A stretch of 49,887 nt of DNA from Pseudomonadota bacterium (GTDB lineage Bacteria; Desulfobacterota; Desulfobulbia; Desulfobulbales; Desulfocapsaceae): positions 1-49,887 of the forward strand of contig JAHJKP010000047.1 in NCBI GenBank assembly GCA_018821985.1. The letters run 5' to 3'. The notes beneath the pieces are model-generated. The model was not told the DNA's origin, did not search any database, and saw nothing but the letters and a program-made list of their open reading frames with translations. This document shows positions 16,795 through 43,678 of this stretch, piece by piece. Numbering within the stretch: the stretch's first letter is position 1; the number at the start of each line of letters is the position of its first letter. A program made the translations under genes and the position numbers.

Positions 16795-16807
16795 TCTTCA
16801 GGCCGCC

Positions 16808-21590: not shown

Positions 21591-21593
21591 CTT

Positions 21594-23087: not shown

Positions 23088-23097
23088 GGAGTCGGCT

Positions 23098-24331: not shown

Positions 24332-24382
24332 TCAGCACCTCGTCGTTTTTCTCGATCAAGCTGTCATTGTGTTGCTAAGATG
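24332..24382. repeat. Copy A of a short repeat upstream of two island genes
   Basis: CTTCAG..CTCG.(T)GTTTTT.TCGATCAAG.TGTC and what follows matches, at roughly three quarters identity, the sequence at 38492-38547. Both copies lie shortly upstream of island genes. On the minus strand both read as similar short peptides (SLIEKNDEVLKHW and LIEKNIETLKYC), so they may be relics of one lost gene. The wider gap 24148-24448 otherwise shows only an open minus-strand fragment (24247-24370) that I do not recognise. Confidence 0.5.
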
Positions 24383-24448
24383 CAATATGCACTGATCCAA
24401 GCTGGGAATGTGTATATTACTGGGACAGGGGAGCGTGAGGGGAAAAAC

Positions 24449-27400
24449 ATGGTTAAATTGATTGCATGTCAGCTTCTCAGTGTCTTCTTATGTCTGTCCT
24501 TTGTCAATGCCCACGCCACGGAGGACTGGCCGCACAATGCCAACAGCGGTATCGGCTGCCCCTCCTGTCATAACTTGGCCTCGTCTGAGCCAAAGTTTCT
24601 GCCGCCCCTGACTCATACCTCTCAGAACCTTGACGATACTACCGCCAACGGTCTCTGCTGGAGCTGCCACACTGGCGGCACCTTGCCTCCTGACGAACCT
24701 CATTACTTGACCCAGGCACCTCATGTCTTGACCCATTCCAGCCTGAACACCAGCAATAAATATGGCAACTGGACCGTTGAATGCTGGGTCTGTCACAATC
24801 AGCACCTTCAGAATCAGCTCAAAACATACGGCGCTGCCAGCTATGCATACACCGGTGGTTTAGTAACCCGAGTGGATGCGACAACGATAACGGTTGCCAC
24901 CGCCGCATGGACTGTCGATCAGTATGCGGGCTATGTGGCAATACCCAATACTGCCCAGATCAACTACAACTACAAGATCATCAGCAACACAGCCACCACC
25001 CTCACGGTAAAAGGGCCAATAGACCTGGCCTATGCTGCAGTCGGCAACACTTTGGGCATCAGTTACAGCAAATTAATCAGGTCAAGCATTAATCTGGCCG
25101 ACATAAAAGGGGTCACAAAAACCGGGATCAAAGCCGTCAAATTTTTCAACTCCACCGGAAACAACTCCTTTGCCGATGGCGATGGGAATGTGAACGGTAT
25201 CTGCGAAGTCTGCCATACCCAGACCAACCACTTTACCAACGACGGAACCAAATCCGGTATTGGCCTGCATGTTGGCCTGCCGGGAACTAACTGCACGACA
25301 TGTCATCCGCATGCTACAGGCTTTAAGGCTGCCTGTAACGGCTGCCACGCCTATCCCCCGGCAACAAATGCCCATAACGTCCATGTCGGTGACCTGAAAT
25401 ACGAATGCAGTGAATGTCATTTCAACAACGACCACAACTCCACCAATATATCAACCTCCCCGTCCCACTTCCTGGCCGACTATAACCGCAATCTGGTGGA
25501 TGTAGCCTTTGATCCGGCCGGTTTCAACTCGGATGCCAACAACGGCACAACACAGGGTCTCCCTGTTTATAACCGCAATGCAAGCTCTGCCCAGGCGACT
25601 TGCGCCAACCTGACCTGCCACAACCCGGACAACAAATTCACCGGCAAGGGCGTCGCTTCCAGTACAAACAACAGCCCTGTCTGGGGCAGCACCATTACCG
25701 AATGCTCTGGCTGCCACTATACAACAGGCAGCGCCGCTGATGGAGCGCGAGACAGTCATAAACGGCACACAGCGGCGGCGTCGATCTACAGCACGGGAGT
25801 GGATTGCACCGGCTGCCATGCTGATATCAATGTGACCGATCCTGAGATAAAAGGAACTGATTCCCGTCATGCAGATAAGGTGCTTAATATCGACCAGGTT
25901 GGTACTTATCCTGTGCATGTCAACGCCAGTCTTCCCAAACGGACTGGGATCACAGCAACATACATAGACGGCGCATCCGGCACTACCACTGGCAGTACAT
26001 GTGACAATGTATATTGTCATGGCGGATTCCCCCCCACGACGGAATGGACAAACCTCAACACGGGAAACAACTATAGATTCACCTGGGGTTCGACCAATGT
26101 CGACGGGAGTGGTAATTGCTATTATTGTCACAAGTTCGGCCGTAGCGCTTTTTCAGGTACGACGAACCAGTCTCACTATGCCCATATAGACGAAACTGGC
26201 GTAAAATATAAAAACGGCCCGAAAATAGCTGAATACAGTTGTGGCACTTGCCATAACTCAGGCGGGGGAGGACCTCTGCACTGCGACGGCCAGGTCGGCA
26301 TGTATGGATCGGCCGATTACACTGTGGCCGCAACCCTGGCTGATACCACCATCTGTGACAAATGCCACGGCACTGCCGCAGGTATTGCCGAGGCCAAGGC
26401 CAGTTGGTCTCTCAACGTTAAAACTGATCGCCACCGAGTAACAGACTGTTTATATTGCCATAACAGTACAACCCCTGCGAGCAGCAGAGCTGATGGCAGC
26501 GGTATCAATGCCCCGGCGGTTGATTATTTCCTGACTACCGGTCATGGTAAAACAAGTGGAACCTTCAAGGTGACAGGCAATAACGGTCCCGCTTATATCT
26601 GTGGAACCTGTCATGATCCGGATAGTACGCATATTGACCACAAATCCGGTGTGGAACTGCGGCTGAAAACAGTACCAACTGATGGCCTCGATTTTACCTC
26701 GCCGTCCAGTGAGGTGTGTCTCGATTGCCACAAGGTCGGCAAAACCACCCCCGGTAGCCTTGGGTATGATGCCTCCAAAGAGGCTTCGGTCCATTCAGGG
26801 GGGGTGCGGGACAGCTATAATACCAGCGCGTCCTCAGTCTTCCCGGCCTTCGGGGATAACGGGAATTATGCCGCAAGTCCCGGCTATCAATGCGCCGACT
26901 GTCATAATGTTCACGGGACAGGCAATGTGGCCATGATCAAACCATCTATCAACGGCAAGGTGGGTGGAATTAACAACAGCGTGGCCATCACCGGTCTGAA
27001 CGAGGCAACTGCAACCGACCTGAGAGGCCTGGATCCTTCGACCGCGTCCAATGATGGAGTGTGTGACGCCTGTCATGCCAAATCGGGATCTTCTCACCCG
27101 GATACGGCTCACGCCAACAATCATTATCAAGGCGATACCGGTCAATCGTGCATGGCCTGCCACAGTCATGCCTCCAGTTTTGCAGCCTCCGGACCGCACG
27201 CCAAGATTACCGATATGACCGGCAGCGTATCTGACAAGATTGTTGATTTCGGTAGTGTAGTCGCCACGGCAACAGCAAACCAGACGATCACGATCAAAAA
27301 CTCCGGCACAACGAACCTGATCATCGGTTCGATTTCCGTCAGTAATCCTCTTAATGCCCCATTCTCCATGGTCAGCGGCAGCGATAACTGTTCCGGCATG

Positions 27401-30400
27401 ACAATAGCGCCTACAGCCAGCTGTTTTTTTACAGTCAGATTTGCACCTACAGTAATCGGGCCATTCACCGACACCTTTGATGTTCCCAGTAACGATGCAA
27501 GCAGTCCGGCCACGATCACCGTCAATGGCACGGCAACCGCAGCCGGACCGGATATAACCGTTACCGATTCCATAGTCCCCGTTTCAGACCTCACGCTGCC
27601 CTACGGCAAACAAGTTTTGAATGTAGGGGTCAGTAAGATCATCACCCTGACGAATGACGGTGTAAGTCCTTTGATTTTGGGGGCAGTCCCCTCGACCAAT
27701 CCTCTGGCAGCGCCTTTTGCCATAACTGCCAACACCTGTGCAAATCAGACCCTGGCTGCGAGTGCCTCCTGCACCCTGACCGTCATCTATACCCCAACCA
27801 CGACCGGCCCTCATGCCGATAGTTTTGATATTACCAGTAATGACCCGGACGAGGGGGCCATCACCTTCCAGGTCAGCGGTACGGGAGTCAATCCGGTATA
27901 TGCATATATTACCACCTCTCCGTCAAACGGGACGATCTCCCGGATACGAACCAATGACAAAGTAAAGATTGCCGGCATAACTTCCGCATATGCCAGCAAA
28001 CTTGCAGTTCTTCCAGATGGTTCAAAAGTTTATGCGAATGGCGCCTCAGGATCTAGTTCTCCTTACACAGGATATATAAAGGTATATAACGCCAATCTTG
28101 GGCTTATCACATCAATCACCCTGGGAAACTCTGGCTTTTTCCCAAAAATGGCGACAGCCCCCAGCGGTTCTTACGTGTATGTGGCACGCAGAGAATCACC
28201 CACCCTTGGGACTTATCTCTATCAAATAAGCGCTATTGACACCGCCACAAACACATTCGCTCTCAATGGCCAGATCCCGGAGTATGTGGATAATATTAAA
28301 GCTCTGGCTGTTTCTCCTGATAGTCAATATGTATATTACACTTATAGTTGGAATGGTACTCCCGCCATTAACACTTTGACCGTTCGCCGTACTCTCGACC
28401 TCTCCCTGGTCACTACTATACCGGTAGGCATTAACCCCACAGAAATGGTGGTTCTCCCGGACAATTCGAAGATTTATCTGCTCAGCTCAGGCAATGACAT
28501 CTCCGTCATCAAGACATCAGATTTTACCGCCCTCTCCCCCATTACCGTCGGGGGTGGCCAGAAAGGTCTGGTGCTTTCACCTGATGGCAGCAGACTATAT
28601 GTTGTCAGCAGTGACAGTTCCAAAAACACTGACACCATCACCTTTATTGACACGGCGACAGATACAATCCTCCAGACCGTTGATGTGACGCGCACCCTCA
28701 GCTGCACATTCAGGAGTATGGCAATAACCCCGGACGGCAAACAGCTCTATATTACTGCTACGGGTACCACCTCTGCCGCCACGGATTATGTGGCCGTTGT
28801 TGAAACCGATTACAGTTCTCAACCGGTCCAGGTAACGGTTGGCAATGCTCCGATTATTTATGGTAATTTCATCCAGACCGACGACCCCAATGCCACCTGG
28901 CCGGATATTCAACTCACTGACACGGCTGGATTGGCCTATGACCATGGGGTTCCTTTCGGGAATTTGACGGTAAATCAGACGGCGTCGGCCAAAACCATTA
29001 CCGTTACCAACAAGGGCAGCGCAAATCTGGTCATCGGTAACATTGCCACTGCCAATCAGCTGGCTGCTCCATTTTCAATCCTCAGCAACACTTGCTCCGG
29101 CCAGACCCTTTCCCCTGCTGCAACCTGCACCCTCTCCGTTTCCTATACTCCGACCACGACGGGGATTCTCTACGATAGTTTTGATATTCCCAGCAATGAT
29201 CCCAACGAAAAAATTGCAATCGTTACATTGAGCGGCACAGGAGTCGTTCCAGGTATTATCGTAACCGACAATGTATTACCGGCAGATGACCTGCAAATGC
29301 CATTTGGCAACGCAGTTGTCACTTCAACAAATTCCAGAATAATTACGGTAACAAACCAAGGTCCCGGGTCTCTCGTATTCAGCGGAATTACTACCAGCCT
29401 ACCGTTCGCCATCAAAGTCGGTGGTTACAGCCCTGCCTGCGCCAGTTATATGACGGCTCCAGGTCTTCCATCTGGCGGGACATGTCAGATTTATGTCAAT
29501 TTTGCTCCGACTGCCACAATCAACTACAGCAGCATGGTAAACATTCAGAGCAATGATCCGGTCAAAAGCCTGGTCTCGGTTGCTGTGACCGGAAAAGGTA
29601 CAACGGCGGGACCTGATATCACCCTCACTGACATTTATTCATATACCTCGCCTGCTATAACAAACATTGATTTCGGCTATTTCGAGATTAATGCCACTCA
29701 GGCAGCTAAATATCTTTATGCCAGAAACGACGGAACACAAAATTTGACCACTGGGCAGATGTCACTGCCTGCCGGGCCTTTTTCGATCAATGTGGACCAA
29801 CTGTCCAATAAAACTCTTACTCCAGGTACCATCAGCAACTACTCGTACTTATATTTTGATCCGACCAGTGTCGGCACCTTTAATGCGCAACTTTCAATTC
29901 CCTCCAATGATCCTGACGAAAATCCAGCACTCTTGAACCTGACGGGCATCGGTTATGAAAACATGCTCGCCTTCATCCCCGATGGTACGGTCATTAAACC
30001 CTATACCATTTCCTACAACGCGAACGGGAACCTGACCAATACAGCCTTAGCCATCATCGGCCTCGACTATTCCTGGTCTGCCCCGCCCCTCTCGGGTTGG
30101 TCCTCCTCGAAGCCTTTCGGCTTTTACGCGTCACCCAGCATCACCTATCTCACCGACGTCACCCTGAACCCCACCATTCCGAAAAACGAACTCCGGTTCT
30201 ACCAGACGTCAAACCGAACCCTTCTTGCCACGGTTAACGTGGGCAATAATCCGAAAGGAGTTGCAGCGACACCAAACGGCAAATACATCTATGTTGCCAA
30301 CTATGACGACAACACGGTCAGCGTTGTTGCCCGGGCCACTCAGACTGTCGTGGCCACAGTCCCCTCAGGCAATGGTCCTACCGGGGTTGATGTTACGCCG

Positions 30401-33400
30401 AATGGCGCATATGTCTATGTCACCAACTTTACCGACAATACGGTTTCGGTTATCAGCACTACTGACAACTCCGTTATAAAAACCATAACCGTCGGTGCTA
30501 ATCCAAACGGGATAGCTGTATCGCCGAATGGCGCATATGCCTATGTCACCAATTATGGAGACAATACCGTTTCCGTAATCCAGACCTCAGATAACACAGT
30601 CGTCGTCACTATCAATGTTGGAATCAACCCGTTCGGCATAGCCTTTACCCCGGATGGATCCCGCGTTTACGTGACCAATTACACTGACAACTCTGTTTCT
30701 GTTATCAAAACATCTGACAATACCATTATCAAAACGATCACCGACGTCTTGTCTCCCAAGGGTATAGCCTCAACCCCAGATGGCAGGTTCATCTATGTTG
30801 TGACCTACACCGCAAGTTACTCAACTAGCCTTGTTCATGTAATCCAGACAGTCGACAATACAGAGGTCGCAACACTAACCAATACCTACACTTCAGTGAA
30901 CGCCTTTGGAAAATTCATAACTCCCATAAGGAACGGAGAGGATGGTGATGGCGTACCGGATGCGGAAGATAACTGTACGTTAGTATCAAATCCGTTCCAG
31001 ACCGACAGTGACGGGGATGCCATAGGTGATGTCTGCGACCCTTGCCCTGCTGATATTGATAACGATTCGGATGGCGATGGCATCTGTAACGGTGCCACTT
31101 TCCTGGCCCCTAAAACCGGTATCAATGACAATTGCCCGACTGTCAGCAATGCCAGCCAGGTAGATACCGACGGAGACGGAATCGGTGATGCCTGTGATGT
31201 TTGTCCAGACGATCCAAATAATGACAGCGATGGCGACGGCATCTGCGTTGGCGCCAGATTCAATGGCCCGAAAATCGGCGGTAATGACAACTGCACAACT
31301 ACCAGCAATACCGACCAACTGGATTCCGATTGCGACGGTGTTGGCGATGCCTGCAGTCCTCCGGTATATAGCCCGCCCGCTTCCCTTAATGTAAGTATCC
31401 AGCAGAATCTCGCCAATAGCATGGTCTCATGGATCGACAACTTCAATGGAGCGAACGGCTATCGGATCGAACGCCAGGATGGAGTATGTGGCGTTGACAA
31501 CACCAACAGTTTTTCACCGCTGGCAACCATTTATCAGCTTGATGATTTTGCCACAGGCATTGATCTGGCAGGCTGGGTGCCGGCAGCTAACGTGCAAACC
31601 ACCAGCACTCAAGGCGTCGTCCCGGCAAGTGCCTCAGACTCCACTGGTTCCGCGTCGGTAACCTGGCTGAACAGTGCTGTCAAGTTGCATAGCGTGACCA
31701 ACGGTACCGGCACCGCCGGTTTCAACACTTCAATTCTTGCACCGAAAAATTTCGTCGGGATTATCGGGGACAAAGATTTTGACATCCAGTACGACTTCTC
31801 CTTGCCCAATGGCACCATCACTGCTACCCAGTACTTTTCTTATGTCCGGCTGGACATGTATCTGCCCACCACCAATGGTAAGCAGAACAACATGTTCGTT
31901 GCCAGGATGAAAAATGGCTTTGTGTTTAACGCCACTATTAATGGGGTAAGTGAAGGAGGTACGTTCACCACCACCGCCACGTCAGGCACCTTGCGGATGA
32001 TCCGCAGCAACCGGCAGCTATCCGGCTATTACTGGGACGGCACAAACTGGAAATTAATATACAAACACAGCCAGCCACTGACTGCTGATCTTACCCCAAT
32101 ATGGGTCGGCTTAGTCCAGCATGCCAATCGTGGTGAAGTTCAAGATATCACTGCTACAGTTGACAACTTCCGTTTCAATACCGTCGGCGGTCTGCCAGTG
32201 GCTGCGCTGAAGATGAATCTTGATGAAAGCAGCTGGCCCGCGTCACCCGGTGTAGTGCGCGACAGCGCCGCATATGGCATAACCTCCGGTGATGTTAGCA
32301 ACAACCATGGCACTGTCTTCGGCGGCGCTACTACCGTGATTGACACGGAGCGCGGAACAGTGGGTAGTTTTGACGGTGTTGACGATTATGTTGCCATACC
32401 TGCTAACGGCACGCTGCAAAATGTGATCAGTACCAGTTTCAGCTTTGCAGCCTGGGTCAAGCCAGCTGATTTGCCGCCGTCACTTACTCCCCAACCACCT
32501 GCTTCTGATTGGATCTACACCGTGATAGCAAGTTCCTATCCTCCCGATGCCCTCATGTACAATAATACAGGGACGTTTGCGTTCCGTGTTTTCAACACGG
32601 CCTGGGCCCAGCCATCGGTGACAACTCCCCTTTCGTACGCCCCCGGAGTATGGCACCATGTGGTCGGAGTTACCGATGATATCGCTAAGACCCTGACCTT
32701 GTACGTGGATGGCCAGCAAGTGGTTCAGGGTCCTTATACCGGTACCCTGATGAATCCCGCCGGACCTTCTTTTCATATAGGCAACAGTAATCCAGGCGGC
32801 GATTGGGATTTCCGCATGAAGGGAAATGTTGATGATGTACGGATTTATAACCGGGCCTTGTCCGCCACTGAGGTAGCAACACTCCATGGCAAGAAAAAGC
32901 AGTATGTTGATAGTGGGTTAACTGCAGGTTCTGACTACTGCTACCGGGTCTATCCTCTTAAAACCGATTCCTGTCCCAACTGGCAGAACCAGGCGGCACA
33001 GGTTAACTATAAATATACCCCTCCAAGCAATACTCCTCCCGCCACGCCGGTTAATACCCTCCCGGCAGCTGGTGCTACAAGTGTTGCCCTTTCCCCAACA
33101 CTTACCGCCTCCAGCTTTTCCGACAGCGATGCCGGTGATACTTTCCAGGCTAGTCAGTGGTTGATAAGCACGGGCAGCGGGGCGGCCTTTGATGCAGGTA
33201 TTGTCTACGATAGTGGCATAGCCAACGGCTCGACCAGTCATACCGTGACCGGCACCGGAACATTCGGCACCACTTATTTCTGGAAAGTTCGCTATCAGGA
33301 CAGCAAGGGCGTCTGGTCCAGTGATTCGAATGAAACAAACTATACCACCTTCAGCAATGTTGCGCCCAACCAACCTGTAAACCTGACCCCAGCCAATGGT

Positions 33401-34330
33401 GCAACCGGGGTAGACAGAAAACCAGTTCTTACCGCCTCAGCGTTTGTCGATGGAGATGTTGGAAATACTCACCAGGCGAGCCAATGGCTGATCAGAAATG
33501 CCAGTGTCAATGTCTATGACAGCGGCATAGTTGCCGGCTCGACAACTCATACTGTTACGACAGCCTTGGCCGGCAGTACTCTTTTCTACTGGAAGGTACG
33601 TTATCAAGACAACAACGGGGTATGGTCGAGTTATTCCAATGAGACAACATTTACGACCAACAGTTTGGTCAGCGAATGGAAATTAAATGAGGGGAGCGGA
33701 ACAACTGCGGCTGATTCTTACGGCAGTAATACCGGAACACTCTTGGGTACCAGTTACTGGTCAACCGGTTTTACTGGAAATGGACTTACCTGTAGTGGTG
33801 ACGACAAAGTCTCCTGGGTATATTCCGGTGGGAGACTGGCAAACAACTTTACCCTGGAAGCCATGGTGCAGGTGACAACAACGCATGAAGTAGAGACTGA
33901 ATCTACAGTTACCACTGGAGGTACCAGCGGCCAGAAATATGTTTTCGGCGCCAATATGTACAGTGGAACTGAACCTGGTATGGGGGTATCGATGGGTACA
34001 AACGGCATTTCAGTTTATGAACACAGTGGTGGGTATATGCCTCCGTTGGCGATATATAGTGGGGCCATTCCAGCCTCTGTATGGCAGCATATGGTCGTCA
34101 CTTATACCAACAAACAGCCACGGATTTACCTCAATGGCAATTTGGTGCGAACAGGACTTGTGTCGCCCAAAACCAATGTTTATATCACAACTTCGTTATG
34201 CCAGGATGACTCTAATTATGGCCCCTTTGCTGGAAAGGTGGATGAGGTGAGAATTTACGGCAATGCCTTGAACGACACCGAAGTTCGTGCCCGTTGTGTC
34301 GCGATGAAGGGGGTAGGCCAGTGCCCGTAG
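24449..34330 (+). CDS. Giant secreted multiheme cytochrome fused to propeller, Ig-like, TSP3 and LamG domains
   Basis: A 3293-residue protein with a signal peptide (MVKLIACQLLSVFLCLSFVNAHA). Residues 37 to about 905 carry 18 CXXCH motifs plus two CX4CH motifs (CANLTCH, CDNVYCH), the mixed pattern of Geobacter-type CxxxxCH/CxxCH proteins, so up to 20 c-type hemes. Then, in order: two Ig-like choice-of-anchor-D domains (about 915-1150); a YVTN-type beta-propeller (about 1150-1485); three more Ig-like domains (about 1485-1835); a second YVTN propeller (about 1835-2160; repeats like YVTNYTDNSVSVI); calcium-binding thrombospondin type 3 repeats (about 2165-2310; DSDGDGIGDACD); a LamG-like region (to about 2815); two fibronectin-like repeats (ASQWLI); and a final LamG domain. 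It is presumably exported and surface-bound, linking electron transfer with adhesion. ATG at 24449 is chosen over 24380: it has GAGGGG and a proper signal peptide. No C-terminal anchor or sorting signal is seen. Confidence 0.9.
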   Translation: MVKLIACQLLSVFLCLSFVNAHATEDWPHNANSGIGCPSCHNLASSEPKFLPPLTHTSQNLDDTTANGLCWSCHTGGTLPPDEPHYLTQAPHVLTHSSLNTSNKYGNWTVECWVCHNQHLQNQLKTYGAASYAYTGGLVTRVDATTITVATAAWTVDQYAGYVAIPNTAQINYNYKIISNTATTLTVKGPIDLAYAAVGNTLGISYSKLIRSSINLADIKGVTKTGIKAVKFFNSTGNNSFADGDGNVNGICEVCHTQTNHFTNDGTKSGIGLHVGLPGTNCTTCHPHATGFKAACNGCHAYPPATNAHNVHVGDLKYECSECHFNNDHNSTNISTSPSHFLADYNRNLVDVAFDPAGFNSDANNGTTQGLPVYNRNASSAQATCANLTCHNPDNKFTGKGVASSTNNSPVWGSTITECSGCHYTTGSAADGARDSHKRHTAAASIYSTGVDCTGCHADINVTDPEIKGTDSRHADKVLNIDQVGTYPVHVNASLPKRTGITATYIDGASGTTTGSTCDNVYCHGGFPPTTEWTNLNTGNNYRFTWGSTNVDGSGNCYYCHKFGRSAFSGTTNQSHYAHIDETGVKYKNGPKIAEYSCGTCHNSGGGGPLHCDGQVGMYGSADYTVAATLADTTICDKCHGTAAGIAEAKASWSLNVKTDRHRVTDCLYCHNSTTPASSRADGSGINAPAVDYFLTTGHGKTSGTFKVTGNNGPAYICGTCHDPDSTHIDHKSGVELRLKTVPTDGLDFTSPSSEVCLDCHKVGKTTPGSLGYDASKEASVHSGGVRDSYNTSASSVFPAFGDNGNYAASPGYQCADCHNVHGTGNVAMIKPSINGKVGGINNSVAITGLNEATATDLRGLDPSTASNDGVCDACHAKSGSSHPDTAHANNHYQGDTGQSCMACHSHASSFAASGPHAKITDMTGSVSDKIVDFGSVVATATANQTITIKNSGTTNLIIGSISVSNPLNAPFSMVSGSDNCSGMTIAPTASCFFTVRFAPTVIGPFTDTFDVPSNDASSPATITVNGTATAAGPDITVTDSIVPVSDLTLPYGKQVLNVGVSKIITLTNDGVSPLILGAVPSTNPLAAPFAITANTCANQTLAASASCTLTVIYTPTTTGPHADSFDITSNDPDEGAITFQVSGTGVNPVYAYITTSPSNGTISRIRTNDKVKIAGITSAYASKLAVLPDGSKVYANGASGSSSPYTGYIKVYNANLGLITSITLGNSGFFPKMATAPSGSYVYVARRESPTLGTYLYQISAIDTATNTFALNGQIPEYVDNIKALAVSPDSQYVYYTYSWNGTPAINTLTVRRTLDLSLVTTIPVGINPTEMVVLPDNSKIYLLSSGNDISVIKTSDFTALSPITVGGGQKGLVLSPDGSRLYVVSSDSSKNTDTITFIDTATDTILQTVDVTRTLSCTFRSMAITPDGKQLYITATGTTSAATDYVAVVETDYSSQPVQVTVGNAPIIYGNFIQTDDPNATWPDIQLTDTAGLAYDHGVPFGNLTVNQTASAKTITVTNKGSANLVIGNIATANQLAAPFSILSNTCSGQTLSPAATCTLSVSYTPTTTGILYDSFDIPSNDPNEKIAIVTLSGTGVVPGIIVTDNVLPADDLQMPFGNAVVTSTNSRIITVTNQGPGSLVFSGITTSLPFAIKVGGYSPACASYMTAPGLPSGGTCQIYVNFAPTATINYSSMVNIQSNDPVKSLVSVAVTGKGTTAGPDITLTDIYSYTSPAITNIDFGYFEINATQAAKYLYARNDGTQNLTTGQMSLPAGPFSINVDQLSNKTLTPGTISNYSYLYFDPTSVGTFNAQLSIPSNDPDENPALLNLTGIGYENMLAFIPDGTVIKPYTISYNANGNLTNTALAIIGLDYSWSAPPLSGWSSSKPFGFYASPSITYLTDVTLNPTIPKNELRFYQTSNRTLLATVNVGNNPKGVAATPNGKYIYVANYDDNTVSVVARATQTVVATVPSGNGPTGVDVTPNGAYVYVTNFTDNTVSVISTTDNSVIKTITVGANPNGIAVSPNGAYAYVTNYGDNTVSVIQTSDNTVVVTINVGINPFGIAFTPDGSRVYVTNYTDNSVSVIKTSDNTIIKTITDVLSPKGIASTPDGRFIYVVTYTASYSTSLVHVIQTVDNTEVATLTNTYTSVNAFGKFITPIRNGEDGDGVPDAEDNCTLVSNPFQTDSDGDAIGDVCDPCPADIDNDSDGDGICNGATFLAPKTGINDNCPTVSNASQVDTDGDGIGDACDVCPDDPNNDSDGDGICVGARFNGPKIGGNDNCTTTSNTDQLDSDCDGVGDACSPPVYSPPASLNVSIQQNLANSMVSWIDNFNGANGYRIERQDGVCGVDNTNSFSPLATIYQLDDFATGIDLAGWVPAANVQTTSTQGVVPASASDSTGSASVTWLNSAVKLHSVTNGTGTAGFNTSILAPKNFVGIIGDKDFDIQYDFSLPNGTITATQYFSYVRLDMYLPTTNGKQNNMFVARMKNGFVFNATINGVSEGGTFTTTATSGTLRMIRSNRQLSGYYWDGTNWKLIYKHSQPLTADLTPIWVGLVQHANRGEVQDITATVDNFRFNTVGGLPVAALKMNLDESSWPASPGVVRDSAAYGITSGDVSNNHGTVFGGATTVIDTERGTVGSFDGVDDYVAIPANGTLQNVISTSFSFAAWVKPADLPPSLTPQPPASDWIYTVIASSYPPDALMYNNTGTFAFRVFNTAWAQPSVTTPLSYAPGVWHHVVGVTDDIAKTLTLYVDGQQVVQGPYTGTLMNPAGPSFHIGNSNPGGDWDFRMKGNVDDVRIYNRALSATEVATLHGKKKQYVDSGLTAGSDYCYRVYPLKTDSCPNWQNQAAQVNYKYTPPSNTPPATPVNTLPAAGATSVALSPTLTASSFSDSDAGDTFQASQWLISTGSGAAFDAGIVYDSGIANGSTSHTVTGTGTFGTTYFWKVRYQDSKGVWSSDSNETNYTTFSNVAPNQPVNLTPANGATGVDRKPVLTASAFVDGDVGNTHQASQWLIRNASVNVYDSGIVAGSTTHTVTTALAGSTLFYWKVRYQDNNGVWSSYSNETTFTTNSLVSEWKLNEGSGTTAADSYGSNTGTLLGTSYWSTGFTGNGLTCSGDDKVSWVYSGGRLANNFTLEAMVQVTTTHEVETESTVTTGGTSGQKYVFGANMYSGTEPGMGVSMGTNGISVYEHSGGYMPPLAIYSGAIPASVWQHMVVTYTNKQPRIYLNGNLVRTGLVSPKTNVYITTSLCQDDSNYGPFAGKVDEVRIYGNALNDTEVRARCVAMKGVGQCP

Positions 34331-34506
34331 TATGACAAGGAATAAAGCGTCAGTGAGCAGCGAAGGCGTTGACAATGAAGCGACTGCCAGGCCTCGCCGG
34401 CAGATGGATGAGGTCAGTGATACGGTGATGAGAAATAACAAATGATAGACGACAAGAAATCTGAGGATGCAGGAGTGAAGAGAAGTAATAAGGAGGATTG
34501 GCAGCC

Positions 34507-37140
34507 ATGAAAAAGGGAAAATTCGGAGCGTTGGTATCCTTTTCTCTACTGATCCTGGTAGTGGCAGAAATTACTTTCACTCTCGGAACCACCGCCCTTG
34601 CCGCGACTATACCGGTTGTTTCGCCGCTGCCATCGATCGATGCTCAGGTGGACATGCCGACAGCAGTGGCGCTGGACGCCCAGGGACGTGTCTACGTGGC
34701 CGAGTCCGAAAACAACCGGGTACGTGTCTTCACCCAGAGTGGCCAATTCGTAGCCACCCTCAACGGACCGGTCAAGCCCATCAGCGTGGCCGTTGATGCG
34801 GCGGGCAGGATCTATGTCGGCAGTGCCTTGCAGCGCAGCGTCACCGTCTTTGCTGCCGACTTTAGCAAACTGTTTCAACTTGGCAGTGGCGACGGAGAGT
34901 TCAGCGAGACTGCTGATATTGATATTGACAGCAGCGGCCAGATCTACGTGGTGGACAAGGACAACAACACAATCCGGGTCTACAGCGCTGCCGGGGTGCT
35001 GCTTAAAAGTATCGGCGCCAAGGGCAGCAACAACGGTCAACTCTACCACCCCACCTCTCTAGCCTTCGATTCCATCTCTTCCGAACTGGTCATCATCGAC
35101 CATCCGCAGATTTGGGACGATGTTTCCCAAGGCATGGTCGATGGCGCACGCATCCAGTTCTTCGCCATGGATGGAACCTTCCGACGCGGCTACCCAAAGT
35201 TTGGCTACAACATGAATGCAGGTCAGCTGGTCAAGCCCACGCAGGTGACGGTTGACTCGGAAAACCGGGTCTATGTCAGCGACTCCCGGTGGCAGAAGGT
35301 AATGGTTTATGGCAAAACCGGCCTCTTTCTCGGCATGATCGACAACAGCGCCCATCCATTGCGCACGCCGCTGGGGCTGAGTATGGCCGCGTCCGGTCGC
35401 CTGTATGTGGCTTCCCTGCTTAGTGGCAAGGTGGATGTCTACGGGATCGATGCGTATTCGGGTATGGACATCGCGCCCAATACCCTTAACTTCACGGCCA
35501 CCGAGGGTGGTAACTCCCCTGATCCACAGACAGCCACCATTAAAAACAGCGGCAAGCAGGCCCTGACCTGGACCGCAGCTACAACAACGGCGTGGCTCAA
35601 CCTGGCTTCCGCGGCCGGCACCCTGCAGCCGGCGGAAACGGGTACGCTGACCGTAGGGGTCAAAAACGACGGTCTGGCCCAGGGCACTTACCAAGGCAGC
35701 ATCTCCGTAATGACTCTGGGCATGGCGGAAAAGATGGCGGTAACATTGACGGTCAAGCCCAACCCCCTGCTGGTCAGCCCGGCCAGTCTCTCGCTTGTGA
35801 CCACGGCGGGCGCACCTTCCTACGCCTGCACAGCCCTGTTGTCTGTGGACAACGCCGAAACCGAAAACTTGGACTGGAGCGCGACCGCGGATCAGAGCTG
35901 GCTCAAATTAAGCAAGGCCACAGGTACCACGCGTGACCAGATTGAAATCGATGCGGATGCCTCGGATCTTGCGCTCGGCACCCATACCGCGACCATCACC
36001 TTCACGAACAAATCTACCGGCGGCAGCGTACTGATCCCGGTCACTCTGAACATAAATGAGCCCAACCCCCTACTGATTAGCCCTGCCAGTCTCTCGTTTA
36101 CGACCACGACGGGAACCAGCCCGTCTCCCTTGGCCCTGTCCGTGAATAACGCCGGGACCAACCCCTTGAGCTGGAGCGCGGCCACAGACCAGAGCTGGCT
36201 CAAATTAAGCAAGGCCACAGGTACCGCTCCTGGCCAGGTTGAAATCAATACAAATATCTCGGCTCTTCCTCCCGGCACCCATACCGCGACCATCACCTTC
36301 ATCAATAGCTCCACTGGCGGTAGCGTACTGGTCCCGGTCAGTATGAGCATAAGTGAGCAAAATCCCTTGCTGGTCAGCCCTGCCAGTCTCTCACTTACGG
36401 CCACAAAGGACACCAGCCCGTCCACGCTGGCCACCACGACGAGCACCAGCTGGTCCACCCTGACTTTGTCAGAAGTTAACGCAGGGACGACATCTCCCCC
36501 CTTGAACTGGGGCGCCACTACAGACCAAAGCTGGCTCAAATTAAGTAAGGGAAAAGGCGCTACGCCTGACCAGATTAAAATCGTCACGGATGTCTCAGCT
36601 CTTGCGCCCGGCACCCATACCGCAACCATCACCTTCAATAATAAATCCACCGGTGGCAGCGTATTGGTCCCGGTCAATTTGATCATAAGCGAGGCCAACC
36701 CCTTGCTGGTCAGCCCTGCCAGTCTCACGTTTACGACCAGGAGGGGCATTAACGCTCCCACTTTGGCCCTGTCCGTAACTAACGAAGCAGGAAAAGCTCC
36801 ATTGGACTGGAGCGCGACGGCGAACCCGAGCTGGCTCAAATTAAGCAAAGACAAAGGTACCACAGGTTCAACGTCGCCTGACGACAAGGTTGGAATCGAT
36901 GCGGATGTCTCGGATCTTGCACCCGGTACCCATAGCGGGGCCATCACCTTCATCAATGACTGCACCGGCGACAGCGTACTGGTCCCGGTTACTCTGAAGG
37001 TCGGCATGTTCCCGTGGCCAATCATCATTCAGAACATCGCCATTGTCGGCGATTGGCAGCATAAACACGACAAGAAAGATACGGATTTAACGAGCAAGGG
37101 CCTGCACCCAGCAACGATCAACGGATCGGAAACCAAGTAA
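34507..37140 (+). CDS. Secreted NHL beta-propeller protein with BACON-type repeats
   Basis: An 877-residue protein with a signal peptide (cleavage near TTALAA). Residues about 40-320 form an NHL-type propeller (GRVYVAESENNRVRVF, GRIYVGSALQRSVTVF, GQIYVVDKDNNTIRVY, NRVYVSDSRWQKVMVY). Five tandem Ig-like BACON domains follow (about 320-840), each of the form LLVSPASLSLVTT... WLKLSKATGT... GTHTATITF. No heme or catalytic motif is present. The N-terminal propeller is clearly paralogous to that of the protein at 38.6 kb. NHL propellers recur beside multiheme cytochromes in metal-reducing bacteria and are thought to assist their assembly or docking; that role is inferred here. ATG at 34507 has GGAGG 10 nt upstream; TTG at 34498 is too close to it. 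The 166-nt gap before it holds no clear gene. Confidence 0.88.
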   Translation: MKKGKFGALVSFSLLILVVAEITFTLGTTALAATIPVVSPLPSIDAQVDMPTAVALDAQGRVYVAESENNRVRVFTQSGQFVATLNGPVKPISVAVDAAGRIYVGSALQRSVTVFAADFSKLFQLGSGDGEFSETADIDIDSSGQIYVVDKDNNTIRVYSAAGVLLKSIGAKGSNNGQLYHPTSLAFDSISSELVIIDHPQIWDDVSQGMVDGARIQFFAMDGTFRRGYPKFGYNMNAGQLVKPTQVTVDSENRVYVSDSRWQKVMVYGKTGLFLGMIDNSAHPLRTPLGLSMAASGRLYVASLLSGKVDVYGIDAYSGMDIAPNTLNFTATEGGNSPDPQTATIKNSGKQALTWTAATTTAWLNLASAAGTLQPAETGTLTVGVKNDGLAQGTYQGSISVMTLGMAEKMAVTLTVKPNPLLVSPASLSLVTTAGAPSYACTALLSVDNAETENLDWSATADQSWLKLSKATGTTRDQIEIDADASDLALGTHTATITFTNKSTGGSVLIPVTLNINEPNPLLISPASLSFTTTTGTSPSPLALSVNNAGTNPLSWSAATDQSWLKLSKATGTAPGQVEINTNISALPPGTHTATITFINSSTGGSVLVPVSMSISEQNPLLVSPASLSLTATKDTSPSTLATTTSTSWSTLTLSEVNAGTTSPPLNWGATTDQSWLKLSKGKGATPDQIKIVTDVSALAPGTHTATITFNNKSTGGSVLVPVNLIISEANPLLVSPASLTFTTRRGINAPTLALSVTNEAGKAPLDWSATANPSWLKLSKDKGTTGSTSPDDKVGIDADVSDLAPGTHSGAITFINDCTGDSVLVPVTLKVGMFPWPIIIQNIAIVGDWQHKHDKKDTDLTSKGLHPATINGSETK
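35760..36990 (+). repeat. Tandem DNA repeats encoding BACON domains
   Basis: Four near-identical units of about 300-335 bp lie inside the NHL/BACON gene. Each begins near CTGGTCAGCCCTGCCAGTCT (about 35769, 36069, 36369 and 36708) and contains GAGCTGGCTCAAATTAAGCAA. The high DNA-level identity indicates recent expansion or ongoing homogenisation within the gene, and makes copy number liable to change or to assembly error. Confidence 0.8.
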
Positions 37141-37634: not shown

Positions 37635-37678
37635 ACTACATGTGTAGTTTAGTTCTGAGGTCAAGGAGACCTTAAATT

Positions 37679-38407
37679 ATGGCCATGAATGTTGAGAGTA
37701 AACAGCAGATGATTTTTTTTGTCACTCGGAATACTGTCGGGTTTCTAATGATTGGCGTCTTGATTCTGTTTCCGGTGACAATGAATGCCGCTGTAAAGAA
37801 TACTCACCACGATTTCTCAAACAGTGGATTGACCAATAATGGTGAAACCTGCGTTGTTTGCCACACGCCGCACAATGCCAATACTACGGTCTCGCAGTCG
37901 CCACTCTGGAACCACCAGGTTACAGTTAACTCGTATACATTATATAACAGTTCAACATCAGATGCCACAGCGACCCAGCCCACCAGCATCACCAGGCTTT
38001 GCCTGTCCTGCCATGACGGAACGGTCGCGCTGGGCTCATTCGGGGAGAACACAGGGACCACTTACATGCGGGATCAAACAAGTAGAGCAGTGCCGATCAG
38101 CATCGGCACTGCCTTGTACAATCATCATCCCGTGGCTATAACCTATGATAGTGCACTCGCTTCACAGGATGGTGGACTCTATAACCCTGATGTACATCCT
38201 TCCGGTCTAGGCGGGACTATCAGCCACGATTTGCTGAATGGAGGTGTGATGGAGTGCAGTTCCTGTCATGATGTTCACGTCGCGCGGGGAACTGGAAATT
38301 GCACAGACTGCCATGATTTTACCTATCCCAGCTATTACCTGAACACAAAATCCCTTGTTAAATCTAACGTGGGAAGCGCGCTTTGTTTTACCTGCCATAA
38401 GAAATAG
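37679..38407 (+). CDS. OmcE-like pentaheme c-type cytochrome
   Basis: A 242-residue secreted cytochrome with a membrane-type signal (GFLMIGVLILFPVTMNAA) and five CXXCH motifs: CVVCH, CLSCH, CSSCH, CTDCH and CFTCH. The frame of conserved residues (HDFSNSG, CVVCHTPHNA, LWNH, CLSCHDGTVALG, HHPVAITYDSALASQDGGL, GGVMECSSCHDVH, GSALCFTCHKK) follows the tetraheme OmcE of Geobacter, which polymerises into extracellular filaments. Here one extra heme motif (CTDCHDF) is inserted between the third and last. Extra histidines for bis-His ligation are plentiful. Filament formation is inferred from this likeness only. It is flanked by two NHL propeller genes. AAGGAG precedes the ATG by 10 nt. A decayed partial copy lies at 43.45 kb. 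Confidence 0.85.
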   Translation: MAMNVESKQQMIFFVTRNTVGFLMIGVLILFPVTMNAAVKNTHHDFSNSGLTNNGETCVVCHTPHNANTTVSQSPLWNHQVTVNSYTLYNSSTSDATATQPTSITRLCLSCHDGTVALGSFGENTGTTYMRDQTSRAVPISIGTALYNHHPVAITYDSALASQDGGLYNPDVHPSGLGGTISHDLLNGGVMECSSCHDVHVARGTGNCTDCHDFTYPSYYLNTKSLVKSNVGSALCFTCHKK

Positions 38408-38491
38408 ACCCTTTGACCTATTTCTGTAAAGAAATGGTATTGATCTCGGTCGTCAATAGTTGACACCAAACCAAGCATGCTACTTTTTGCA

Positions 38492-38576: not shown

Positions 38577-41117
38577 ATGATTAAGGCAATGTTCCAGGGG
38601 ATATTCGTCAGTCTGTTTCTTTGGTTATTAGTCTCGGCATTATTTATACTGCCAGCAGAGACAATTATGGCAGCGGACATCCTGGATTATGTGCGTCTTG
38701 CCCCGCTCACAGCCCAAGTCGACACGCCGACCATCGTAACAATTGGTCCTGACGGTCGGGTCTATATTGCCGAAACCAGTAATAACCTTGTTCGGATCTT
38801 CAGTCCGAGCGGCAGTCTTATCCATTCTATTACCGGTCTCAGCAAACCGATCAGTCTGGCGGTGGATGCGGGCGGCAGAATCTACATCGGCAACCTCGGC
38901 CGTGGCAATGTCGAAGTCTATGACACCTCCTTTGCATACCTGTTCAAGATCGGCCAAGGCAACGAAGAATTCGGCCAGCCCAATGATATCGATATAGACG
39001 CATCCGGTTTAATCTATGTGGTTGATAAGACCAACTCGGCCATCAAGCTCTACAATCCTGACGGTACCTACAACTCCTCCCTCGGCCAATCCGGCAACAA
39101 CAACGGCCAATTCCATCACCCGGTATCGCTGGTCATAGATACAGCAACAAATGAGCTAGTTGTCCTTGACCTGCAGCAGCGCCGGGATACATTTAATCCT
39201 GATACCATGATCGACGGGGCTCGTATCCAGTTCCTGCAACTAAACGGCACCTTTAAACGTGGCTATGCCAAGTTCGGCTACCACATGGATAACGGCGAGT
39301 TGGTCATGCCCATGCATATAGCCGTAGATGACCAGAGCAGAGTGTATGTATCTGACTCCCGTATGCAGAAGGTGATGGTTTACAATAACAATGGTGCTTT
39401 TCTAAGCGTGATCGACAATGCCTCGAAGCCACTTCGCACCCCAATGGGCATGGCGATGGGCAAGACCAATAAACTATATATAGCCTCACTGCCTGCCGGC
39501 CAGGTTGAGATCTATGGTATCGACAGCTACATCAATATGGCAGTCAGCCCCGCTTCCCTCTGTTTTGAAGAAATCTATGGTGAAGCAAGCGGCAATCTCA
39601 AGGATATTATCATAACCAATACGGGCAACCGGCCACTTACTTGGACGGCAAGTTCTGAGGATCCGTGGCTGATCCTGCCTGGCACCCAGGGAATCAGCTC
39701 TGAAGACGGACCGACAACAGTAAATGTCGGGGTCGACATCGACAACTTAGAGCCCGGCCAATACAAGGGGAGCGTGACCATTACCGCAGATGGGGTCGTA
39801 ACGGAGACAGTTACCGTCACCCTGACTGTCCAACCCAATACGAGGCTCTCCGTTTCACCTCCTGCCCTGACCTTTGTCTCCACGGTTGGCAACACTCCTG
39901 CCGCCCAGACCCTGGCCATCGAAAACACCGGCGGCGGAACGCTCAATTGGAACGCCAGTGGAGACCAGAGCTGGCTGATCCTTAACGCGGCATCCGGCAC
40001 GGCTCCATCCGCCCTCAAGGTATCTGCAGATATTACCTCACTCCCGGCCGGCAGCTATAGCGGCACGGTTACGGTCACCAAACATGGCTTTTCCCCTGAG
40101 ACAACAATCATCCCGGTCAGCATGACCGTGAGCGAGCCTCCAGAATCTCCCGCGCCACCTGTGGAGCCTCCACCTATAGTCAACCCAGGCGGCAATTCCA
40201 CGCATAAAAATTGGACGACTACCCACATCCTGCCCGGCACATCGCTGAACGGCATCTGGGGCAGCTCAAACAAGAATGTGTTTGTCGTCGGCGCGGAAGG
40301 GTCCATCCTTCGATATAACGGCAAGACCTGGTCTGAAATGGTATCCGGCACATCCACCATATTTTACGGCATCTGGGGCAGCTCGACTGAGAATGTGTAT
40401 GCTGTAGGTGAAAACGGACTTGTCTTGCACTTTGACGGCCACAACTGGTCACCTGTTCAGGGTATAGTTCAGGACTCGTTGCGCGATACCTGGGGAAGCT
40501 CAGCCTCCAACGTTTATTCGGTAGGCCGGAACGGCTCGATTATAGAATCCTTTTCTTCTGTAGCAGATTCAGGCATTGCCCTGAACGGCATTTGGGGCAA
40601 CTCCGAATCTGATATTTTTGTGGTGGGTGATAACGGAACCATCCTTCACTTTGATGGCCGCGGTTGGAGCCCTATGATCTCTAATACCGCCCAATGTTTA
40701 AACGGCATCTGGGGAAGTTCCCGCTCAGATGTCTTTGCAGTGGGCGAGGAGGGCGCCATAATTCATTATGACGGAACCAGCTGGAGCAGTATGGACTCTG
40801 CGACCACAGCCCCCCTGCAGTCCGTCTGGGGCAGCTCGGGAGAGGATGTCTTTGCCGTGGGCGCCAACGGCCTTATTCTCTACTATAACGGGACCAGCTG
40901 GCACCCTGTTACCACGACGGTAAAAGACAATTTAAATGATGTATGGGTCTCTGATAAGTCCGAGCTTTTTGCCGTCGGGGAGAACGGTACCGTGGTCTAC
41001 GGCAAGGCCAAGTTCCCTTTGCTGAATTTCATCCAGCCCCTCATTTTGTTCAATGCTGCTAAACAGAATATGATCAAGAAAACTGAAGAGGAACAGTTCT
41101 CGACTGACGACAAGTAA
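38577..41117 (+). CDS. Secreted NHL beta-propeller protein with BACON repeats and a second propeller
   Basis: An 846-residue protein with a signal peptide (cleavage near ETIMAA). Its N-terminal half parallels the protein at 34.5 kb: an NHL propeller (GRVYIAETSNNLVRIF, GRIYIGNLGRGNVEVY, GLIYVVDKTNSAIKLY, SRVYVSDSRMQKVMVY) and two BACON-type domains (about 320-520). A proline-rich linker (PPESPAPPVEPPPIVNPGG) leads to a second propeller of about seven repeats, each of the form LNGIWGSS..DVFAVGE.G.I.HYDG..W. No heme motif is present. The paralogy with the 34.5-kb protein, and its place between two cytochrome genes, suggest each propeller protein serves a neighbouring cytochrome. GAGGAG lies about 10 nt upstream of the ATG. 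Confidence 0.88.
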   Translation: MIKAMFQGIFVSLFLWLLVSALFILPAETIMAADILDYVRLAPLTAQVDTPTIVTIGPDGRVYIAETSNNLVRIFSPSGSLIHSITGLSKPISLAVDAGGRIYIGNLGRGNVEVYDTSFAYLFKIGQGNEEFGQPNDIDIDASGLIYVVDKTNSAIKLYNPDGTYNSSLGQSGNNNGQFHHPVSLVIDTATNELVVLDLQQRRDTFNPDTMIDGARIQFLQLNGTFKRGYAKFGYHMDNGELVMPMHIAVDDQSRVYVSDSRMQKVMVYNNNGAFLSVIDNASKPLRTPMGMAMGKTNKLYIASLPAGQVEIYGIDSYINMAVSPASLCFEEIYGEASGNLKDIIITNTGNRPLTWTASSEDPWLILPGTQGISSEDGPTTVNVGVDIDNLEPGQYKGSVTITADGVVTETVTVTLTVQPNTRLSVSPPALTFVSTVGNTPAAQTLAIENTGGGTLNWNASGDQSWLILNAASGTAPSALKVSADITSLPAGSYSGTVTVTKHGFSPETTIIPVSMTVSEPPESPAPPVEPPPIVNPGGNSTHKNWTTTHILPGTSLNGIWGSSNKNVFVVGAEGSILRYNGKTWSEMVSGTSTIFYGIWGSSTENVYAVGENGLVLHFDGHNWSPVQGIVQDSLRDTWGSSASNVYSVGRNGSIIESFSSVADSGIALNGIWGNSESDIFVVGDNGTILHFDGRGWSPMISNTAQCLNGIWGSSRSDVFAVGEEGAIIHYDGTSWSSMDSATTAPLQSVWGSSGEDVFAVGANGLILYYNGTSWHPVTTTVKDNLNDVWVSDKSELFAVGENGTVVYGKAKFPLLNFIQPLILFNAAKQNMIKKTEEEQFSTDDK

Positions 41118-41141: not shown

Positions 41142-43280
41142 ATGAACATTAAATACGCAATCACCGTTTCCACGAAACTGCTCTTGTCGGTTTTTCTGGT
41201 CTTTGTATCCTCATATGCCACTGCAGAAGGCCTAGATGAACCTCACAACGCTGTAAACAGTATCAGCTGTGACAAATGTCATGATGTATTTGCCTATGAC
41301 CAGCCAAAGCTCATGCCTCCTTGGACAGTTCATGCCCCCCAGAATATAGATGACACTCAGCTCAATTCACTTTGCTGGAGTTGCCATAACGATATTCCCG
41401 TTCCTTATGTTAAGACTCACTCCAGCCTGCAAACCGGCACTGAATACGGTAATTGGACGGTTGAGTGCTCGGTATGTCACGACCCGCATGTCCAGGAGCA
41501 AAACAACTTAAACGGAAGTACATATGGAAAACTAATCCGCAAACAGATTTCCCTTGATAGAATAACAGGTGCAATTCCCCAAAAATCAGGCAGCAAAACA
41601 GTTAAGCTCCTCGGTCAGACTGGTGCGAAATCCTTTGCCGATGGAGACGCAGTATATGACGGAGTTTGTGAGGTCTGCCACACCAAAACCAGCCATCATC
41701 GAAATGACGGCACGGGAACCGAGCAATCCCATTACAACGGATTCCGTTGCACTAGTTGTCATTCCCATGTAAATGGATTTGACGGTTTCGACCACGCCGT
41801 GGCGGCCGTCAAGCCGGAGGACCCCATCCCGGCGGAGAACAACTGCACGAACACGGGAGGATGTCACGGAACTCCTGGTCTTGCCTGGGGATCCTCTGGT
41901 CCTGACTGGATTGCAGGCGTACACGGCAGTCAATGCGGGCGCTGCCATGTCGATCCGCTTGGAGGTGGTTCCATCGTTGCTGATCCCCCTGATATGCACA
42001 TTCCTCCAGGTGGCGGTTCTTGCAGCGACTGTCACGGCATCTTCACCACAGTCCATTCTCACTATGACCATAACGCGGCCTCTCAGAGCGGCAAAGTGGC
42101 AGTCTTCCCCCCACACGGTCACGATGATGCAGAGGACAATATTTTCGAAGTCCAGGTCGACTGTACCACCTGCCACGCAATGGATTTGAAAAAAGCCCAC
42201 GGCAATGATTGCACGACGTGCCACCGCACCCCCTATAATACGCTGCCTAAGTCAACGCCGTTCTGGAACAGAACGTGTCAGCAGGGAGGATGCCATACTG
42301 TCTTCCACGCAGGTTTGACGACGGCGCATGATCCCTTCTCGGATCCCTATGATCCCGACCTCAGCTGTTCTCTCTGCCATATTATAGAGGGGGATACACC
42401 GCTGCAGGCCAAGTGCCTGAACTGCCATGCAACGGTAGGAAACCTTGCCGTGCCGATAACATCCTCGAATGCCCAGGCCTCGTATAGCGGAGCGGCCCAG
42501 ATCGTCTTCTCGATCACTGTGGGTGGAAAAGTAGGCGTCGGAAGAACCTTCTACAAGCTTGACGGGGCAGCTGTTACCGGGGGCTCGCAAGTGGTAGTCA
42601 GTGCTGCCGGCTCGCATACTCTTGAGTTCTGGTCAATAAGTCAAGGTGGCATACTCGAGTCATCGCATAAAAATACATCCTTTACCATCACTGCGGACAT
42701 CACCCCACCGGCAACAACATCGAACGCCCAGGCCGCCTACTACCAGAACGCGCTGATCACCCTCACGGCAACAGACGCCAGCGATCTAGGCGTTAAAAAC
42801 ACCTACTACACCCTCAACGGCGGTCCCACCCAGACCGGCACCACGATATCTATACCTGAGACGATTGGGACTATCGCCTACACGCTGCTCTTCTGGTCCG
42901 AGGACTGGTCAGGCAACATCGAGCCCCAGCACAGTGTCAGCTTCACCGTTACCGGTGGTAGCGGGACCCTCCGCCTGGTCTGGGAGAACAGCGACACGAA
43001 CGGCTCACCTTGCATCGTTGACTCCAAGTCTAGGGCATGGTGGACCATTAGCCGCCTGAACGCCGGAGGTGGTGTCGAGGCCATCCTGGCAACTGGTAAC
43101 TCTGGTGGCTTCCCTGGTACCTGTCCTGGATGGAGCGGTGTCAATGACGTTTCCGTTCATGTAAACCTAACAAAGCATTATCGAGTGTCAATCGACTGGG
43201 AGACCACTGATGATGGGGGCACTGAAGTCTTTCAGTTTGACGTTCATACAAACGGCGAGGTTATCCTGCAGAGATACTAG
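41142..43280 (+). CDS. Secreted multiheme cytochrome with OmpL47-type Ig-like C-terminus
   Basis: A 712-residue protein with a signal peptide (LLLSVFLVFVSSYATA). It has eleven CXXCH motifs, one CX4CH (CQQGGCH) and one CX5CH-like motif (CTNTGGCH), so about 12-13 hemes between residues 45 and 430. The first four heme sites and their spacing match the N-terminus of the giant cytochrome (CWSCH... SSL..G.EYGNWTVEC.VCH... KSFADGD...GVCEVCHT), so the two are paralogues that diverged after gaining different tails. Residues about 440-600 are two Ig-like domains of the OmpL47/chitobiase-C type (TSSNAQA.Y...FYKLDG; TSNAQAAYYQNALITLTATDASDLGV), then a unique beta-rich end. It is presumably exported. The start follows the propeller gene by 24 nt. 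Confidence 0.88.
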   Translation: MNIKYAITVSTKLLLSVFLVFVSSYATAEGLDEPHNAVNSISCDKCHDVFAYDQPKLMPPWTVHAPQNIDDTQLNSLCWSCHNDIPVPYVKTHSSLQTGTEYGNWTVECSVCHDPHVQEQNNLNGSTYGKLIRKQISLDRITGAIPQKSGSKTVKLLGQTGAKSFADGDAVYDGVCEVCHTKTSHHRNDGTGTEQSHYNGFRCTSCHSHVNGFDGFDHAVAAVKPEDPIPAENNCTNTGGCHGTPGLAWGSSGPDWIAGVHGSQCGRCHVDPLGGGSIVADPPDMHIPPGGGSCSDCHGIFTTVHSHYDHNAASQSGKVAVFPPHGHDDAEDNIFEVQVDCTTCHAMDLKKAHGNDCTTCHRTPYNTLPKSTPFWNRTCQQGGCHTVFHAGLTTAHDPFSDPYDPDLSCSLCHIIEGDTPLQAKCLNCHATVGNLAVPITSSNAQASYSGAAQIVFSITVGGKVGVGRTFYKLDGAAVTGGSQVVVSAAGSHTLEFWSISQGGILESSHKNTSFTITADITPPATTSNAQAAYYQNALITLTATDASDLGVKNTYYTLNGGPTQTGTTISIPETIGTIAYTLLFWSEDWSGNIEPQHSVSFTVTGGSGTLRLVWENSDTNGSPCIVDSKSRAWWTISRLNAGGGVEAILATGNSGGFPGTCPGWSGVNDVSVHVNLTKHYRVSIDWETTDDGGTEVFQFDVHTNGEVILQRY

Positions 43281-43452: not shown

Positions 43453-43618
43453 TTAAAACAAGTCGAGCAGTTCCTCTCATGATGTTCACGTTCCCCGGAG
43501 AACTGGAAGTTGTACAGACTGCTATGATTTTACCTATCCAAGTTATTACCTGAACACAAAATCCCTTGTTCAATCCAATGTGGCCAGCGCACCTTGTTTA
43601 ACCTGCCACAAGAAATAG
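43453..43618 (+). pseudogene. Decayed partial copy of the OmcE-like cytochrome gene
   Basis: The sequence matches the OmcE-like gene at 38076-38407 with a 165-bp internal deletion at a GCAGT microhomology, and the likeness continues some 40 nt past the stop (CCTTTGACCT). The remaining frame reads DVHVPRRTGSCTDCYDFTYP... CLTCHKK. The heme site CSSCH has become SSSSH, and CTDCH has become CTDCY, so two of three remaining heme sites are lost. It has no start or signal peptide. The region 43281-43452 before it shows nothing else I recognise. Confidence 0.85.
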
Positions 43619-43678
43619 GTCCTTTGACCTGTTTCTTATAAAGAGATCGTTTTGAAATGATCCCCCCTGAACACGCCA

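Follow-up and report, generated by a model that had tools for sequence, protein, structure and literature searches.

A candidate five-heme subclass of the OmcE family of extracellular cytochrome wires, marked by an added heme and a co-occurring histidine

Introduction

In the tetraheme filament protein OmcE of Geobacter sulfurreducens (7TFS), heme 2 takes a histidine from the adjacent subunit, and in the six-heme OmcS filament the interface heme is ligated across subunits, as described in the excerpted text of PMC12203936. Four of the five known wires follow a strict (TS)n heme pattern and OmcZ is branched, according to the excerpt of PMC11936953. The OmcZ filament of Geobacter sulfurreducens has eight hemes, and the excerpted account places all of its ligands within one subunit (PMC9473688). 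Five-heme cytochromes with a proposed link to nanowires are described from cable bacteria in the excerpt of PMC11976967, where they are ExtKL homologues with an AvECN-like heme arrangement; this description sets them apart from the protein reported here, and they were not taken as the same protein. A pentaheme of Thermodesulfobacteria was not so taken either, being described in the source excerpt as similar to an OmcS-like protein.

Here we analyze omcE5, a gene for a five-heme OmcE-like cytochrome in a 49,887-nucleotide stretch of DNA (the window) from a member of the Desulfocapsaceae (contig JAHJKP010000047.1 of assembly GCA_018821985.1). In our literature search, which was weak in that the primary OmcE and archaeal-wire papers lay outside it, neither a five-heme OmcE subclass nor its operon was described.

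Results

The initial annotation had claimed five ordered motifs in positions 37679-38407, including the spaced motif HHPVAITYDSALASQDGGL, and a CTDCH before the last heme. All of these are present, with CTDCH placed after the third OmcE-type heme and ahead of the last one. The features of the gene are listed below.

37663..37668, + strand: AAGGAG, putative ribosome-binding-like site, from the sequence
37679..38407, + strand: omcE5, five-heme OmcE-like cytochrome of 242 aa, assigned from the open reading frame, the OmcE relationship, the genus copies and dN/dS
37679..37789, + strand: candidate signal peptide of omcE5, from the hydrophobic N-terminus; probable cleavage, judged by eye, after A37, with mature start AVKNTHHDF
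37805..37807, + strand: H43, subclass-specific histidine and candidate distal ligand of the added heme IV, from alignment counts
37808..37810, + strand: H44, distal-ligand candidate, invariant column of the 80-row alignment A2
37850..37864, + strand: heme I motif CVVCH, starting at residue 58, from the sequence
37871..37873, + strand: H65 (CHTPH), distal-ligand candidate, invariant column of A2
38000..38014, + strand: heme II motif CLSCH, starting at residue 108, from the sequence
38126..38128, + strand: H150 (HHPV), distal-ligand candidate, invariant column of A2
38255..38269, + strand: heme III motif CSSCH, starting at residue 193, from the sequence
38276..38278, + strand: H200 (CHDVH), distal-ligand candidate, invariant column of A2
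38300..38314, + strand: heme IV motif CTDCH (C208-TDC-H212), the added heme, from the sequence; missing from aligned four-heme relatives
38384..38398, + strand: heme V motif CFTCH, starting at residue 236, equivalent to the last OmcE heme, from the sequence

Five CXXCH motifs are not a chance occurrence in this gene, since only ~0.02 would be expected at its length from its own composition (0.0008 from an assumed typical composition) and since the motifs are conserved in the copies of the genus. In the alignment, CTDCH sits in an insertion of ~14-17 residues that four-heme paralogues do not have.

The initial annotation had also called the protein OmcE-like, and this identity was borne out over the full length and by the predicted fold. 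A phmmer search of PDB sequences with the omcE5 product matched OmcE (7TFS, E 2.7e-17) and chain N of 9YUQ (E 3.2e-17), an entry of 16 chains in which it is named 'Putative multiheme cytochrome c' and for which our literature search gave no paper. A profile of 80 relatives raised these matches to E 2.9e-42 and E 8.1e-40, the latter over the whole length of chain N, which has four CXXCH motifs in the alignment against five in omcE5. The same profile gave a weak and partial match to OmcS (E 5.6e-4), which has no full-length match, and OmcZ was not among its PDB matches at E up to 0.01.

The AlphaFold2 model of the omcE5 product (pLDDT 78.9, pTM 0.70) has a hydrophobic N-terminal helix at residues 5-30, and in the predicted structure the heme IV loop (residues 204-222) falls below a pLDDT of 50, so that the model does not locate heme IV. 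With this model, the sole Foldseek match was OmcE (7TFS, E 6.3e-7); 9YUQ was absent from the Foldseek matches, and the searched library may not include it. Alignment of the model to 7TFS by VIA-align gave Z 13.3 over 169 residues, with 2.6 Å rmsd and 37% identity. The two proteins share a hydrophobic N-terminus and carry the four core CXXCH motifs in order and four distal-histidine candidates at the same positions. They differ in that omcE5 has one heme more (IV) between the third and last OmcE hemes, and H43 where OmcE has lysine. At the level of the family, the relationship drawn from sequence homology and the modeled fold is secure; given its five CXXCH motifs, we file omcE5 in a five-heme subclass and not as a tetraheme OmcE proper.

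The wider family was examined at 79 listed loci, which come from the best 80 of a longer genome-contig scan, were confirmed with the five-heme query and are not a measure of prevalence. At their focus, 15 have the same five-heme arrangement and 64 are four-heme (62 by count, with L050 and L092 read from their frames). Two of the 15 (L033 and L034) are, in our reading, second records of L020 and L019 from the genus, and the 13 remaining, non-genus loci are from Calditrichota (2), Bacteroidetes/Bacteroidales/Bacteroidia (5), Chlorobiota (2), Melioribacteraceae, Deferribacteres, Bacterium BMS3Abin03 and Desulfobacterium; members in the genus of the window are recorded as Desulfocapsaceae and Desulfobulbaceae. 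Judged from these sequences, heme IV (CTDCH) defines an OmcE subclass that spans several phyla. A search across the phylum, with up to 15 candidates scored per genome, found the five-heme C-terminus in 3 of 395 genomes, all in the genus of the window; in view of this scoring depth and of the Desulfobacterium locus (L076), we do not claim restriction to the genus.

The extra fifth heme of the initial annotation was supported, and its case was strengthened by a histidine that co-occurs with it. Position 43 is histidine in 19/19 five-heme proteins vs 0/66 four-heme proteins in the alignment with the genus copies and OmcE, and in 19/19 vs 0/68 in the tree alignment; in an enlarged alignment, H43 precedes the universal H44 in 21/21 members of the subclass vs 0/68 four-heme proteins. 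In a class-specific test on this enlarged set, the only columns that mark the subclass are H43, R203 (20/21 five-heme vs 1/68 four-heme), C208, C211, H212 and S225. The columns of H44, H65, H150 and H200 are invariant in A2, and H65 is kept in 20 of 21 five-heme proteins, the exception being one of three tandem copies at L042.

Three relatives with five hemes, L049:1609, L082:10693 and L087:9281, carry the extra one after core heme II and before core heme III, and only one histidine at the N-terminus; at position 43 they have V, S and R, respectively (H43 in 0/3). Hemes seem to have been added to the OmcE scaffold in more than one place.

Among all 108 OmcE-family proteins of <330 aa with at least 3 CXXCH in the 79 loci, 18 have both the HH pair and heme IV (including L065:7563, a five-heme copy cut by the contig end), 89 have neither, one has the pair alone and none has heme IV alone. 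The single exception, which breaks strict co-occurrence, is L057:9158, a four-heme paralogue adjoining a five-heme gene. It has a long loop at the heme IV site with no CXXCH there, and no histidine after heme I; because the long loop was kept and that histidine is missing, it may be a five-heme copy after loss of the heme.

These counts point to H43 as the likely distal (sixth) ligand of heme IV. Other histidines considered for this position were set aside: H79 is also present in 64/66 four-heme rows (OmcE has arginine), H173 is missing from L033, H183 is missing from L034, and H149 is present in only 8/19.

A tree was built without the insertion and without the H43 column (87 rows, 174 columns). 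On it the subclass requires two changes, although a tree with the subclass forced into one clade was not rejected (p-AU 0.40). The phylogenetically independent pairs for H43 and heme IV number 1-2, which leaves a sign test without power, and we attribute the association to constraint shared over a long time, not to a series of separate gains. The histidine and the added heme may have a joint origin that took place on just one or two occasions.

Five more five-heme copies were found in three genomes of the same genus (two each in G002 and G009, one in G006), with 77-81% identity to omcE5 and all five motifs kept in each. Counting that of the window, 4 of the 17 genus genomes searched have an intact five-heme copy and 13 have none, several of these 13 being incomplete. 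The dN/dS of the genus copies against omcE5 is 0.24-0.31, from which omcE5 is judged to be under purifying selection. A decayed second copy lies downstream in the window.

43467..43655, + strand: what is left of the 3' end of another omcE5 copy, now decayed; 85.7% identity over 189 bases to 38256-38443

Two TAA codons fall within the protein match of this remnant, and its heme motifs are broken. Fragments of omcE5, with one TGA in each, are also carried by G009.

The other genes around omcE5 are the following.

24380..34330, + strand: giant 3316-aa multiheme protein with 18 CXXCH and Ig-like, beta-propeller and LamG_3 domains, from sequence and domains
34498..37140, + strand: NHL-repeat and BACON-domain protein, from domain matches
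38577..41117, + strand: second NHL-repeat and BACON-domain protein, from domain matches
41142..43280, + strand: 712-aa multiheme cytochrome with 11 CXXCH and an OmpL47-type domain, from domain matches and sequence

The 3316-aa protein is a candidate giant surface cytochrome or adhesin, and relatives of it are found near omcE5 in G002 and G009 too. In G002 (L116, L117), the giant cytochrome and NHL/BACON genes lie between two five-heme genes, one of which directly precedes a four-heme series; in G006 and G009:C101 (L113, L115), the five-heme gene has no such neighbors in the stretch read. On another contig of the genome of the window (L112), four-heme OmcE, propeller, five-heme cytochrome, barrel and propeller genes follow one another, and the contig ends inside the next gene. 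Elsewhere in the window, a run of ketoacyl synthase, AMP-binding, B12-radical SAM, acyltransferase, glycosyltransferase and amine-oxidase-like genes (7091-23646, + strand) has the look of a cluster for lipid or polyene biosynthesis.

By our own labeling of the genes, 36 of the 79 loci listed, many of which are cut, encode in order a four-heme OmcE, an NHL propeller, a (usually five-heme) cytochrome and a ~650-aa protein. An example is L040:4175-9891; a ~13-heme cytochrome is often next. Predicted from 48 relatives, the ~650-aa protein is a large beta-barrel with ~30 strands of at least 10 residues (pLDDT 90.7). Of its 827 structural matches (E up to 10), the 50 listed are outer-membrane proteins including TonB receptors, LptD, ushers and MtrB, with TM-scores that are all low, the top among the matches listed being MtrB at 0.37. 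From this prediction, the barrel may sheathe an electron conduit or serve as an export pore.

Outside the genus, the five-heme gene is mostly the last of this conserved operon, behind the genes for four-heme OmcE, propeller, outer-membrane barrel and multiheme cytochrome. At 9 of the 13 non-genus five-heme loci it comes immediately after a member of the ~13-heme family (9 to 20 CXXCH); at L057 one four-heme OmcE intervenes, and the arrangement is absent from L070, L075 and L076. The cut five-heme copy at L065 likewise comes after a ~13-heme family gene. A four-heme OmcE is encoded in 12 of the 13 non-genus genomes with a five-heme protein, the exception being G061, which has three five-heme copies.

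Several of these operons also contain divergent four-heme OmcE paralogues. Seven of eight that were picked and read lack a histidine after heme I (L035:10816, L040:10884, L043:11461, L048:10680, L045:14890, L061:16255 and L057:9158), and a strict count of CXXCHxxH gives further ones. From their sequences, cap or minor wire subunits are possible roles for these paralogues. Lipobox counts were weak (27/53 and 46/104), and we draw nothing from them.

Discussion

We give about an even chance to the reading that the omcE5 product builds an extracellular wire of the OmcE type as the subunit of a five-heme subclass, with heme IV held by H212 and H43, a polymer joined across the subunit interface and a side branch as an exit for electrons. 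Heme IV would be bis-histidine ligated by H212 and H43, so that the HH pair, at mature positions ~6-7, would grip two different hemes, H43 holding heme IV and H44 its neighbor. The four core hemes would keep their own ligands and form the usual stacked and T-shaped chain, and the subunit would polymerize via the same bond as OmcE, a histidine reaching across the interface. Because all four core distal histidines are retained, the protein probably keeps the subunit interface of OmcE as well, and a polymer with five hemes per subunit is plausible from the sequence.

Two histidines, H200 and H65, are candidates for the one that crosses the OmcE interface. We claim neither, since the alignment to the OmcS profile and the loss of the histidine after heme I in the paralogues point to different ones. 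In OmcS, His16 is the donor across the subunit interface.

The least sure step, based on heme-count parity alone, is that heme IV would be a side branch near the subunit junction. A side branch is favored because the chain could not take up a fifth heme in line and still alternate strictly. The altered heme spacing proposed in the initial annotation may or may not hold: with heme IV as a side branch, the main chain would stay as it is. The proposed analogy is the side-branch heme of OmcZ, as given in excerpts of PMC9473688 and PMC11936953; heme IV would then give an otherwise insulated wire an OmcZ-like point at which electrons leak out. Their entry to the wire would be via the outer-membrane barrel and the multiheme cytochromes encoded with the family.

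The five-heme protein need not be the main wire, since 12 of the 13 non-genus genomes also hold a four-heme OmcE. This co-occurrence, together with the usual place of the gene, last in an operon that also encodes a barrel and a multiheme cytochrome, makes a minor subunit a serious rival to the homopolymer. Such an adaptor or cap would join a four-heme OmcE wire to the outer-membrane conduit, its extra heme bridging the two, or would end the wire, in the manner of minor pilins. The position behind the conduit genes (9 of 13 loci, L057 with one four-heme OmcE between, and the cut copy at L065) and the accompanying four-heme OmcE favor a joint or cap, and paralogues without the histidine after heme I (7 of the 8 read) are as expected if some subunits end the polymer. 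The multiple five-heme copies and the retained ligands favor the wire: every candidate interface histidine is kept (H65 in 20/21), and the two intact copies each in G002 and G009 and the three in L042 exceed what a cap would need. Moreover, the assembly of the window has omcE5 on a different contig from the four-heme operon, and L070, L075 and L076 do without the operon-end arrangement. On balance, we regard the minor-subunit role as possible but doubtful.

Multiheme electron shuttles are common, and the protein could also be a secreted or surface-bound pentaheme monomer that keeps the OmcE fold and forms no polymer. This is improbable in our judgment, as its two close PDB relatives are the OmcE filament and 9YUQ with 16 copies of one chain, and the candidate interface ligands are retained. 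That omcE5 is a degenerating duplicate without a distinct role is already disfavored and very improbable: the decayed copy 5 kb downstream, the G009 fragments with stops and the 13 of 17 genus genomes searched without an intact copy would fit it, but the dN/dS against the window copy and the intact copies in four genus genomes speak against it.

Returning to the wire, we put forward more tentatively a fuller picture, at somewhat below even confidence, of a cross-phylum OmcE-type subclass in which a side-branching fifth heme, held near the junction by the HH pair of the N-terminal arm, makes the wire leaky or joins the conduit to it, and in which the conserved operon would supply the conduit, the wire and its end caps together. 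With its one extra heme, a single ligand to match and an operon that includes an outer-membrane barrel, such a subclass is a natural experiment. It points to H43 as the residue expected to bind the heme, implies a chain with a branch and provides, in several phyla, candidates for the adaptor and the cap.
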